From a virus, in the IMG/VR virus record IMGVR_UViG_3300034110_000037, positions 1-22,668 of that record: DNA of 22,668 nucleotides. One strand, given 5' to 3'. Shown here one piece after another: positions 213 through 7,594 of the stretch. Each line of letters starts with the position of its first letter. Within the stretch, counting starts at the first letter, position 1. The notes below the pieces were generated by a model that saw nothing but the letters and a program-made list of their open reading frames with translations, searched no databases and had not been told where the DNA came from. Made by a program: the position numbers and the translations under genes.

Positions 213-314
213 ATAGAGAATGCCGAAGGCGATAGGGATATATCTGAGCATACCCGAGCATCAATCAAGCTGTAACCCGCATGGATACTAGATGTACGAT
301 GATGCATACATAGC

Positions 315-328
315 ATACTGAGCAGTAT
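315..328. promoter_or_regulatory. Dyad ATACTG-AG-CAGTAT
   Basis: Six-base arms form a perfect inverted repeat around a 2-base centre, and one member of the CTGAG motif family lies within it. Size and symmetry suit a dimeric regulator, but the regulator is not in the window. Confidence 0.35.
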
Positions 329-413
329 CGGGAATGAATGTATAGTCAGTAGGTCAATGCAACTAATTATCATTATCACTACATATCCTGAGTATTACTG
401 AGAATCATTCGCA

Positions 414-426
414 TTACATGATGTAA
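414..426. promoter_or_regulatory. Dyad TTACAT-G-ATGTAA
   Basis: Perfect 6-base arms flank a single central base, between the motif pairs at 388/398 and 440/450. It is operator-like in form, with no further evidence. Confidence 0.3.
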
Positions 427-461
427 ATGAGAACTATTCCTGAGTATACCTGAGTATGATC

Positions 462-489
462 TAGGGGTATACAGGGGGTGTAGGGGTAT
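462..489 (+). repeat. Direct repeat TAGGGGTAT with G-runs
   Basis: TAGGGGTAT occurs at 462-470 and 481-489, separated by ACAGGGGGTG. The resulting three G-runs (4, 5 and 4 bases) stand out in otherwise AT-rich DNA. One run is missing for a classic intramolecular G-quadruplex. Confidence 0.45.
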
Positions 490-511
490 GTACTTATAGT
501 GCATTACAGCT

Positions 512-565
512 TAAAATTATCTGCAAAAAATTATACACCCTAAAATTTTCTATAAAAAATTATGC
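512..565 (+). repeat. Imperfect 25-base AT-rich direct repeat
   Basis: Two 25-base units (512-536 and 541-565, period 29) match at 21 positions. Each has the form TAAAATT, TCT, then an A-run and TTAT. They sit directly before the four-copy, 11-base-spaced motif array. An AT-rich repeated segment beside protein-binding repeats resembles a DNA-unwinding element, but this is inference. Confidence 0.5.
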
Positions 566-700
566 TCTTTGGAGTATACTGAGTATATGCTGAGGGAATG
601 CTGAGCATACACTGAGTACATTCTATGACGCCTTCGGCATTTCTTAATAACGTGTTAAGAGAATGCTGAACGTAGTGAAGCGTCTAGTGTCCTCTTGTTA

Positions 701-4252: not shown

Positions 4253-5017
4253 ATGAAAATTACACTACCTAGCGTAGCTGGTGGTTATAATCTTCAACTT
4301 ATTAATGAGAATTTCCAAACAATTGCTAACGAGCTAAACACTCGCGTTTGGTATCGTAATAATACTGTTGGAGAGCCTAACACACCGGCTCAAGACATTG
4401 ATATGAATGGCAAGAGGTTGTATAATCTCCCATTGCCAACTTCTAGCTCTGAGCCAGTGACTCGTGGATATGCTGACGCCTATCTAGGCGGCACTGTAAC
4501 ATCTGAACTGAATGATCTAGCCGCAGGAGTTGCTGCAGACGTCATCCTTGTTGATGAGCTTGCAACCACAGCAACCACTCAAGCGGGTATCTGTATTACA
4601 CAGGCTAATCTGGCAATTACTGCTGCTGGTGAAGCTGCTGCATCTGCTGCTGCTATTACCCTACCCTTGCCAGTTGCAAGCGGCGGAACAGGGGTTACAA
4701 CGGCTCTGGATGCTCGTGCTGCCCTTGGTGCTGCTGCTATTGAGACTGGTACAGCATATCCAATCGGTGGGTTGATGATGGCTACGTTCTATAATAACAG
4801 CGGAGCATTGGCTACAGTTACCATTAATTATGGAGACACTACAGGCAGTCAGAATCTGACACCCGGAGGCATTCAATCTAATGGTACAACCCTAGTTCCA
4901 AATCTAGCAGCTACATCTGGATTCCTATCAGCAGGACAGACATGGCGATGCCTCGGTAGGGCATTCTTCGAAGATGGCGTAAAGGTTACAACAACACTAT
5001 GGCAGAGAGTTTCGTAG
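4253..5017 (+). CDS. Short tail fibre sharing the spike anchor domain
   Basis: A 254-residue probable second receptor-binding or fibre-tip protein. Its first 59 residues align with those of the spike at 727-2772 with about 28 identities, including YRNN, GEPNT, D-NGK and YN, so both probably dock to the same virion site or one docks on the other. After an Ala/Thr-rich helical middle (residues about 85-145) comes a fibre-type hinge (SGGTGVTTALDARAALG). The remaining ~85 residues form a beta-rich C-terminal head without an obvious enzyme motif. The gene begins immediately after the 58-residue gene, with only a weak purine-rich leader, and overlaps the small terminase by 19 bases. Confidence 0.8.
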   Translation: MKITLPSVAGGYNLQLINENFQTIANELNTRVWYRNNTVGEPNTPAQDIDMNGKRLYNLPLPTSSSEPVTRGYADAYLGGTVTSELNDLAAGVAADVILVDELATTATTQAGICITQANLAITAAGEAAASAAAITLPLPVASGGTGVTTALDARAALGAAAIETGTAYPIGGLMMATFYNNSGALATVTINYGDTTGSQNLTPGGIQSNGTTLVPNLAATSGFLSAGQTWRCLGRAFFEDGVKVTTTLWQRVS

Positions 5018-5502
5018 AACGCGAACGCTTGCTGGATTCAGAGGGGAGGCCGTTAACGCAGTCTCTCTTTCTCGAAATTGGATATAGCGATCAAGCAATC
5101 TATACGTTTAAGGAAGTGGACCACGTATACAACGGCAAGACTTACATTTCACTAAAGAAGCGCTTTATTGAAATGGAGGACCCTACAGAATATGAGTTTG
5201 CCATTACATACTTTCTTAGTTGGAAGCATTGGCAACGTATCTGTAAGAATAAGCTAATTCTTGAGCAAATTAACGAATGGCGTGAAGAGCTTGAGATGAA
5301 GCTACGTAGCAGAGCTGTTAAACAGGCTATGCAGGCTGCTGGAAGCCCCTCAGGGAACTTTCAAGCTGCTAAGTGGCTGGTAGATAAGGGTTGGGACCCT
5401 AAACGCGCTGGAAGGCCAACTAGGGATGAGCTTGAGCGTGAAAGCCGTATACGTGAAAAGATTGATGATGAGTATAGCGGAGATATTGCTAGGCTCAAAT
5501 AA
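4999..5502 (+). CDS. terS: Terminase small subunit
   Basis: A 167-residue DNA-recognition subunit of the packaging motor, called from its position before the large subunit and its sequence character: a mostly helical, charged protein with a C-terminal section NFQAAKWLVDKGWDPKRAGRP followed by an acidic/basic helix. The KGW...RAGRP pattern is common in podovirus small terminases. It overlaps the fibre gene by 19 bases; AAAGG (4981-4985) lies a little far upstream as ribosome site. The large subunit starts 8 bases after its stop with AAGGAA (5501-5506). Which DNA it recognises is unknown; the repeats at 1-726 are one candidate. Confidence 0.78.
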   Translation: MAESFVERERLLDSEGRPLTQSLFLEIGYSDQAIYTFKEVDHVYNGKTYISLKKRFIEMEDPTEYEFAITYFLSWKHWQRICKNKLILEQINEWREELEMKLRSRAVKQAMQAAGSPSGNFQAAKWLVDKGWDPKRAGRPTRDELERESRIREKIDDEYSGDIARLK

Positions 5503-5510
5503 GGAATACA

Positions 5511-7118
5511 ATGGCAGTTAAAGAAGATGAGTGGCTTAAATTAGCCCAGATTAAGCTCGATAAGATGCCTGCCGAGGCAAAAGAAATACGAGAACTGGCA
5601 AAGCAAGACCTCTTCTTCTTTGCTCGTTTGGTGAATCCCGGCTACGTCTATGGTGATATTCATAAGGAATATTTCCAATGGATGCAGGATTATACGGTGT
5701 TCGGGCAGGGGGATGCAACAACAACAAATAAACTAATCATGCTCCCCCGAGCCCACTTAAAGAGCCATATGGTGGCTACATGGGCATCTTGGATTATTAC
5801 AAGGCATCCTGAGATTACAATTCTCTACGTGTCTGCTACTGCTGGCTTGGCTGAAGCACAACTTTACGCCATTAAGAACATCCTAACTAGCCCAGTATAC
5901 ACTCGGTACTATCCTGAATACGTAAATCCTCAAGAGGGAAAGAGGGAGAAATGGAGCTTGTCATCCATCTCCATTGATCACCCTCAACGTAAGAAGGAGG
6001 GTATTCGAGATGCTACTATTGCTACAGCAGGATTGACAACCAACACTACTGGTTGGCACGCTGATGTATTAATCCCAGATGACTTGGTAGTTCCTGAGAA
6101 TGCGTATACCGAAGATGGGCGAGACTCTGTATCTAAGAAGAGTAGTCAGTTTACTTCTATTCTTAATGCTGGTGGATTCACATTGGCATGTGGTACGCGC
6201 TATCATCCCGGAGATATTTATGGGACATGGAAGAATCAAGAGTTTGATATTTACAATGATGACGGTGAAATTGTAGATAGAAAGCCTGTATGGGAAGTTA
6301 AGGAATACGCTGTTGAACGTGACGGTGTATTCATCTGGCCTCGTTCTGTACGTCCCGGAGATGGAAAGTTCTTCGGATTTGATCCACAAACACTAGCTAA
6401 GATTAAGGCGCAGTATGAAGATCGAGTCCAGTTCTACGCCCAATACTACAACGATCCAAACGATCCAGGAACAAATCGGATCGACAGAAGTAAGTTCCAA
6501 TACTATGACAGGAAGTTCCTCGTTCAATCTGGAGGATACTGGACATTCAAAGGTAAACGCCTTAACGTATATGCAGCGATTGACTTTGCTTTCAGCCTTA
6601 CAAAGAAATCGGACAACACAGCAGTCGTAGTGATTGGTATGGACTCTGATGGATTTTTCTATATCTTAGATATTGAAGTGTTTAAGAGTGATAAGATTCG
6701 AGACTATTTTGAATGTGTACAGCGACTACATGGTAAGTGGGAGTTTAAGAAGCTCCGTGCTGAGGTTACAGTAGCTCAGACGGTTATTGTACGCGACTTA
6801 AAGGATAAGATGCGTGAAGAGGGATTAAGCCTTACAATTGACGAACATCGTCCTAATCGTAACGAAGGAACTAAAGCTGAACGTATTGCTGCTGTTCTCG
6901 AACACAAATATGAGAATCAAAACATCTGGCATTTTAAAGGAGGCTACACAGATATGCTTGAAGAAGAGCTAGTGTTAGCAAGGCCCAAGCATGACGATAT
7001 TAAGGATGCCCTAGCCTCTGCTATTGAAATTGCTGTAAAACCTCGTGCAGGCCGTTCTGATGAGTCACAGCGTAATGTTATCGCTTTTCACCCAAGATTT
7101 GGAGGATGTGTATTCTAA
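5511..7118 (+). CDS. terL: Terminase large subunit (packaging ATPase-nuclease)
   Basis: A 535-residue motor that pumps DNA into the procapsid and cuts it. The N-terminal ATPase shows a variant Walker A (PRAHLKSH, 79-86), a Walker B (DVLIPDD, 185-191, followed by LVVPENAY) and a coupling motif (CGTRYHPGD, 227-235). The C-terminal RNase H-like nuclease shows acidic residues at AIDFA (Asp358), RAEVT (Glu418) and HDDIKDA (Asp495/496, Asp499). Length is normal for T7-like terminases. The C-terminus (HPRFGG then CVF) overlaps by one base the start of an HNH endonuclease gene, so its last residues may have been altered when that gene arrived. That last point is inference. Confidence 0.93.
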   Translation: MAVKEDEWLKLAQIKLDKMPAEAKEIRELAKQDLFFFARLVNPGYVYGDIHKEYFQWMQDYTVFGQGDATTTNKLIMLPRAHLKSHMVATWASWIITRHPEITILYVSATAGLAEAQLYAIKNILTSPVYTRYYPEYVNPQEGKREKWSLSSISIDHPQRKKEGIRDATIATAGLTTNTTGWHADVLIPDDLVVPENAYTEDGRDSVSKKSSQFTSILNAGGFTLACGTRYHPGDIYGTWKNQEFDIYNDDGEIVDRKPVWEVKEYAVERDGVFIWPRSVRPGDGKFFGFDPQTLAKIKAQYEDRVQFYAQYYNDPNDPGTNRIDRSKFQYYDRKFLVQSGGYWTFKGKRLNVYAAIDFAFSLTKKSDNTAVVVIGMDSDGFFYILDIEVFKSDKIRDYFECVQRLHGKWEFKKLRAEVTVAQTVIVRDLKDKMREEGLSLTIDEHRPNRNEGTKAERIAAVLEHKYENQNIWHFKGGYTDMLEEELVLARPKHDDIKDALASAIEIAVKPRAGRSDESQRNVIAFHPRFGGCVF

Positions 7119-7594
7119 TGGGCAATTCAATTAGAATTTTAAGAGATCAAGTTTGTCAAGATTGCGGAAAAGTCGTTGTATCGAGTAGCAATAAATTCCT
7201 TAGATGTGTGCCTTGTGGTCGTAGAAATTATTATAAAAAGTACATGCTAACTCCAGAGTGGAGAGTTCGTAAATTAATGGCCATGGCTCTAAATCGAGCA
7301 AATGAAAAGAAACTACCATTTGATTTAACTTTAGATTATCTAATCCATCTGTGGGAAGATTCAAATGCAGCCTGCTCTATCAGTTATAGAAAATTTGACT
7401 TAGAGCCTTCAGGTAAGTTCGCGCAAGTCAACCCCGATGCACCATCCATTGATCGTATAGTCCCTGAAAAAGGATATACCCAAGGGAATGTCAGATTCGT
7501 TACGTACCATGTTAATGTGGCACTTGCTGAATTTGGTGAAGAAAAACTCAGGATTCTCTGTAAAGATATCCTTAATCAAACCAGTAAAACATGA
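7118..7594 (+). CDS. Free-standing HNH homing-type endonuclease
   Basis: A 158-residue endonuclease with two CxxC knuckles (Cys13/16, Cys30/33) forming a probable zinc ribbon, then an HNH-type region: SIDRI (110-114), GYTQGNVRFV (119-128) and a final HVN (His131, Asn133). This pattern is typical of phage homing endonucleases that spread into uninfected sites. ATG at 7118 shares a base with the terminase stop (TAATG) and follows GGAGG (7101-7105); an alternative in-frame ATG at 7106 is too close to that site. The gene is more AT-rich than its neighbours in the lines I counted (about 35-37% versus about 42% GC in the portal), consistent with later arrival. It overlaps the portal by ATGA. Confidence 0.85.
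   Translation: MGNSIRILRDQVCQDCGKVVVSSSNKFLRCVPCGRRNYYKKYMLTPEWRVRKLMAMALNRANEKKLPFDLTLDYLIHLWEDSNAACSISYRKFDLEPSGKFAQVNPDAPSIDRIVPEKGYTQGNVRFVTYHVNVALAEFGEEKLRILCKDILNQTSKT

Follow-up and report, generated by a model that had tools for sequence, protein, structure and literature searches.

A one-strand array of short words surrounds a predicted genome-end site in a podovirus related to Zobellviridae

Results

Gene content of the window

The DNA analyzed here, referred to as the window, is a virus record of 22,668 bases, whose open reading frames (ORFs) include tail fiber, lysozyme, overlapping spanin-like, and terminase genes, and which also encodes an endonuclease VII-like protein, the portal, the major capsid protein, and tail and further late proteins. 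The tail fiber and terminase ORFs, array words, and end elements described below lie on the + strand. The large terminase (5511-7118; phrog_38, E 1.3e-90; Terminase_6C) shares 60-69% identity with those of named Zobellviridae (CW02, PA11, O4, ICP2); judged from sequence, the window phage is a podovirus related to this family. Bases 1-726 form a non-coding region according to the ORF list and precede the late genes, the first of which (727-2772) encodes a tail fiber or tail spike protein (PHROGs tail families). Comparison with the complete relatives IME180, Pecta, CVT22, and TC6 places this region between a leftward early arm and a rightward late arm. The late side is seen downstream of the region in the window record, which does not contain the early arm, the two-arm position resting on the relatives.

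A sigma-70 consensus scan marked two possible early leftward promoters on the − strand (30-57, TTGACA-16-TATAGT, 11/12; 122-150, TTGACA-17-GATAGT, 10/12), the overall count of promoter-like sites not being above that in shuffled sequences. The Rfam search gave no match and the tRNA search found none. Two of the late genes have similar N-termini, at 727-930 and 4253-4450 (MK..LP.V....... INxNFxxI..ELx.....YRNN..GEPNT), as if two tail fibers carried one common attachment domain. The stretch between the large terminase and the portal, in which O4, IME180, and CVT22 have no gene, is occupied at 7106-7594 by a gene of endonuclease VII-like or HNH-like type (phrog_3322, phrog_1035).

One-strand array in the non-coding region

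The first-pass annotation described eleven octamer sites in a single orientation, and all of them are present, the third starting at 318, not 317. Four of the eleven match the octamer exactly, while those at 254, 318, and 590 match poorly. The outer left words (244-325) are CTGAGCAT at 244, CCGAGCAT at 254, and CTGAGCAG at 318. They are followed by CTGAGTAT at 388 with CTGAGAAT at 398 (388-405), by two further copies of CTGAGTAT at 440 and 450 (440-457), and by the right words (579-619), which advance in steps of 11: CTGAGTAT at 579, CTGAGGGA at 590, CTGAGCAT at 601, and CTGAGTAC at 612. CTGAG has ten + strand copies and no − strand copy in bases 1-726, and in the remaining 21,942 bases it is at background level (30 on + and 31 on −). 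The array also withstood the comparison with shuffled sequence that had been proposed for it, since 5000 dinucleotide shuffles of the region contained on average 0.68 and at most 5 copies of CTGAG, compared with the 10 observed.

Steps of 10 or 11 bp, to which the annotation had drawn attention, are far above chance within clusters: the best 5-mer forms five pairs with this spacing, compared with two or fewer in the shuffles (n=3000). They do not, however, amount to phasing across the whole array, over which the resultant length has its maximum of 0.77 near a period of 10.2 and varies erratically between adjacent periods. Strict one-face helical phasing over the entire array was ruled out by this phase analysis and by the 10-14 bp spacing in relatives. 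The idea of a protein polymerizing along one face of the helix is unsupported as stated, phase being kept within clusters only and relatives stepping by 11, 12, or 13 bp. Because the spacing in relatives is 10-14 bp, mostly 11-13 bp, strict 10/11 spacing is a trait of the window phage and not of the system.

A perfect 13-base inverted repeat lies outside the array and encloses all of it, with its left arm, AATGCCGAAGGCG, at 219-231 and its right arm, CGCCTTCGGCATT, at 629-641. Similar TGCCGAAGGCG and CCTTCGGCA strings occur around the same region in the related loci L004, L007, L012, and L112. A scan of viral contigs for pairs of the exact octamer two bases apart returned 17 contigs, none of which was recovered in the later scan for the conserved core.

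Conserved core and its relation to terminal repeat boundaries

A search based on the start of the tail fiber gene yielded only two loci. In relatives fetched via the large terminase, the same position carries a conserved core with a fixed order of strings, namely a G-rich block, GTGCATTRCASCTT, and then AAATTTCT...AGAAATTA. Further core loci came from a pattern scan of viral contigs. Over 50 loci are matched by a profile derived from 25 cores, and each complete isolate genome contains a single convincing copy. The profile hit in the window (443-534, E 2.6e-17) contains the G-rich block, GTGCATTRCASCTT, and a AAATTTCT-like string. The octamers surround this core, which reads as the G-rich block followed by GTGCA/TTACAGCTTAAAATTATCT (here and below, slashes mark the cut). 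In the window, the G-rich block GGGGTATACAGGGGGTGTAGGGGTA was placed at 464-488 by profile alignment, and the end core GTGCA/TTACAGCTTAAAATTATCTGCAAAAAATTA at 499-533 by the column of the boundary of the direct terminal repeat (DTR) in relatives. The second half of the core (505-533) is followed by a copy of itself (534-562), the two forming AT-rich 29-base repeats that are 83% alike (505-562), and the core profile gives second hits at 534-575. The G-rich block consists of three runs of four or five G, kept in most relatives just before the cut, and may possibly form a G-quadruplex or a strong protein site.

A blastn search located the core at the termini of several isolate records or close to them. 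DTRs are recorded for six isolates belonging to five genera; their late-side boundary coincides with the same base of the core in four and is at most 3 nt off in two, O4 and K4 being near-identical at the core and therefore counted as one. O4 and K4 have a common 74-base terminal repeat, which ends at GGTGCA inside the core. The late-side boundaries of phiRIO-1 (annotated repeat of 121 bases) and VpV262 (138 bases), counted relative to a TTTCT-like string 14 bases further on, are at the same core base as in O4 and K4; the boundaries of O4, VpV262, and phiRIO-1 were taken from their sequence records. In ICBM1 and ICBM2, the repeats of 172 and 159 bases, read from PacBio data, have their boundary within 3 bases of the core cut, and a conserved G+C-rich DTR end has been reported for cobaviruses (PMC6775973). 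Klebsiella phage Klyazma, for which a terminal repeat of 711 bp was determined by PhageTerm and Sanger sequencing (PMC9960094), differs from O4, K4, phiRIO-1, and VpV262 in that its repeat ends approximately 80 bases before the core cut; the reported ends of this phage (OP125547, L133, 1-837) may deserve a second look. CVT22 and VPMCC5 were classed as circularly permuted by their authors.

Upstream element and predicted terminal repeat

Motif discovery in 36 loci, between 230 and 58 bases before the cut, returned GGTCATTGCACCCCAA, which is related to GGTGCATTGCACC of the core and has the same orientation. Its log-likelihood was 116, compared with 50 and 53 in two base-shuffled sets, which were searched from fewer seeds. 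In the window, this upstream end element, GGTCAATGCAACTAAT, a relative of GGTGCATTGCACC, lies at 352-367. The left DTR boundary of O4 and K4 is inside such an element (GTGCAA/TACACC), and the right boundary reported for Klyazma falls in its copy of the element; phiRIO-1, VpV262, and ICBM2 have no clear element at the left DTR edge. Because the O4/K4 boundary sits in the homologous element, the left edge of the window repeat is predicted after base 362, with an uncertainty of about 5 bases. With its right edge predicted between 503 and 504 from the core, the DTR of the window phage would be about 141 bp long (363-503), as derived by homology to reported boundaries. Array words are located to the left of this predicted repeat, inside it, and to its right.

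Arrays in related loci

When 39 loci were pooled, 5-mers recurred more often than expected at lags of 10-14 bases (45, 72, 63, 86, and 42, compared with approximately 14-18 expected), and no such excess block at these lags was found in coding DNA of the same contigs. In ten loci, including the window, the best 5-mer has the lowest p value that the shuffle test could give (p 0.003); all ten of these 5-mers come from CTTGAG, CTCAAG, or CTGAG. Together with L012 (CTCAAG, p 0.047) and L080, which was included for its eight copies of CTAAG although its own test favored another 5-mer, they make up a set of twelve array loci. In this set, 87 copies of CTTGAG, CTCAAG, CTGAG, or CTAAG lie on one strand and none is reversed, the words being at background downstream of the array regions. 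Relative to the cut, the copies are concentrated between -80 and -42 and between +45 and +125, others reaching out to -260, and no word was found from -41 to +44. Among gaps of at most 15 bases, 46 of 47 measure 10-14 bases, with a mode of 12-13. With its flanks, the word reads CTTGAGNAT, from which CTGAGTAT of the window differs by lacking one T. Treatment of CTCAAG and CTTGAG as unrelated words was dropped, as they are the two orientations of a single site and share their flanks. Outside the twelve-locus set, ICBM2 carries 11 copies of CAAGG and none reversed, in a CCAAGG array around its DTR known from long reads.

The array was not detectable in many relatives that have the core, among them O4, K4, L005, and L017, and is thus not essential to the end site. 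L005 and L017 are close to the window in the large-terminase tree. The first-pass annotation had held that absence from close relatives with the same gene order would refute its reading of the array; it is indeed absent from these two, and it is present in the other close relatives L004, L007, L008, and L116. Since the core is kept without an array in the former while the latter carry one, the array is best seen not as noise but as an accessory to an end site that is itself more conserved. In L005, which has no CTTGAG-type array, a palindromic word resembling GTCTTATATAAGA occurs four times upstream of the core (about 5750-5920).

Candidate small terminase

The ORF at 4999-5502 is located directly before the large terminase, a position that its gene occupies in all relatives, and is considered here a candidate small terminase and the proposed array-binding protein. 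It belongs to phrog_8035, a family without assigned function, and was not identified by Pfam or PDB sequence searches. AlphaFold modeled it with confidence (pLDDT 87.5). None of the PDB matches from Foldseek was significant, and the top fold matches, weak and below significance, are led by small terminases (Sf6 gp1, Z 4.3; phBC6A51, Z 3.8; NV1, Z 3.1).

In the tree of small-terminase candidates, the four CTCAAG loci form one clade (98/85), whereas the three of them with a large terminase do not group together in the tree of that gene (AU p 0.0002). Pairing of L004 with L116, the competing arrangement, is not rejected by the small-terminase-candidate tree (p 0.40). These few loci are suggestive of a CTCAAG word that follows the small-terminase candidate and not the large terminase.

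Discussion

The region before the late genes of the window phage is very probably a genome-end site, to judge from the core that it shares with relatives of known ends. The octamers probably belong to this site, that is, to the concatemer junction, and the array would then provide multiple copies of a site to which the packaging machinery, most likely through its small terminase, binds. Considered separately, a role of the array in end recognition or packaging has roughly two chances in three, and for the predicted small terminase as the protein that binds it the chances are about even. A packaging signal was the third option offered by the first-pass annotation, and it fits an array that surrounds the DTR site. 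According to the mechanism that we propose, replication would produce head-to-tail concatemers, in which neighboring genomes have one common terminal repeat (predicted at about 363-503), and end elements would mark its two edges, one at 352-367 and the other, the core, at 499-533. The packaging protein bound to the array of CTGAGTAT words, in all likelihood the small terminase (ORF 4999-5502), would load and orient the large terminase. Cutting at the two end elements, in the window phage presumably including the core, together with duplication of the repeat, would then yield unit genomes.

Other functions of the array were also considered. Iteron origins consist of short same-strand repeats beside an AT-rich stretch, and the array, lying next to the AT-rich repeats at 505-562 and between two genome arms, resembles them; it could therefore bind a replication initiator or serve to restart replication at the genome end, its position reflecting replication and not packaging. 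We regard this as rather unlikely, since the layout is centered on the DTR boundary, with word-to-cut distances kept in twelve loci and the interval around the cut free of words, and a non-systematic look at the annotations of relatives revealed no iteron-type initiator gene. Control of late transcription, by an activator or phage sigma factor acting through words upstream of the first late gene at 727, is a still weaker candidate. Although the array directly precedes the late genes and relatives encode sigma-factor-like proteins, the words flank the DTR on either side and also occur within it, as far as 480 bp away from the gene, they do not rise above background elsewhere in the late region, and core-bearing relatives of the same gene order do without them.

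The least probable explanation, which we already disfavor, is that the words are a functionless by-product of slippage or gene conversion in non-coding DNA. The close relatives L005 and L017, with the core and without the words, speak for it. Against it stand the sequence between the words, which is not repeated as a unit, and the twelve loci, in which the words keep to one strand (87 to 0) and to similar distances from the cut even though the word itself changes. Under the preferred reading, in which the array serves the packaging machinery, a more speculative extension, in our opinion doubtful, is that every phage lineage uses a packaging word specific to it, which is recognized by the small terminase of that lineage. 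The array would thus act as a lineage code that lets the machinery favor concatemers of its own phage, and the words (CTTGAG, its reverse CTCAAG, CTGAG, CTAAG, and CCAAGG) would switch with the small terminase, independently of the large terminase.

For a widespread group of podoviruses, these results make the genome-end site recognizable from sequence alone, so that ends may be placed in metagenomic contigs without reads. They also extend T7-like repeat arrays at the concatemer junction to a second phage family, in which the words vary by lineage and the layout is constant, and the natural changes of the word open the role of such arrays to comparison and to swap experiments.

Comparison with known systems

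Close counterparts of the window region are the DTR ends of Zobellviridae (phiRIO-1, VpV262, O4, K4, and the cobaviruses ICBM1 and ICBM2), which have the same core and gene arrangement as the window and a boundary on the same base or within 3 nt of it, whereas the ends of the window phage are predicted only. As to arrays, that of ICBM2 is likewise confined to one strand but composed of CCAAGG, and O4 and K4 have none. In phage lambda, cosB repeats beside the cos cut site bind a protein and load terminase, and the ends are cohesive. Several short repeats next to the cut are a likeness to the array, for which protein binding is proposed; the difference lies in the cohesive ends of lambda compared with the DTRs of the window-phage group.

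The octamers had been said to match no known family, which overlooks the same-strand CCTAAAG arrays of T7, located in and beside its terminal repeat. By our count, the CCTAAAG-type words of T7, confined to one strand, are found within the terminal repeat at 17, 41, and 60, then from 175 to 332, mostly in steps of 12-13, and once more before the right-hand repeat. These junction arrays are called SRL and SRR, names that reportedly come from Dunn and Studier in 1983, and to our knowledge their role has not been settled. In both systems, many words of 6-8 bases, all in one orientation and without a coding function, lie within the terminal repeat as well as to its left and right, and in the concatemer both show the order array, repeat, array, which in the window is relative to the predicted repeat. 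Steps are 12-13 in T7 and 10-14 in the window phage and its relatives. The word differs, being CCTAAAG in T7 and CTGAGTAT or CTTGAGNAT here, with no homology to the T7 junction; T7 belongs to another family and has no core of the window type, and in the window-phage group, unlike T7, early and late arms diverge from the junction. Because word, core, and family differ, the T7 arrays are the closest known case as an analogue in arrangement and not by membership. The repeated word very probably marks where the window phage cuts its concatemers into single genomes before packaging, much as T7 does, and is a variation on a known arrangement and not a new kind of system.
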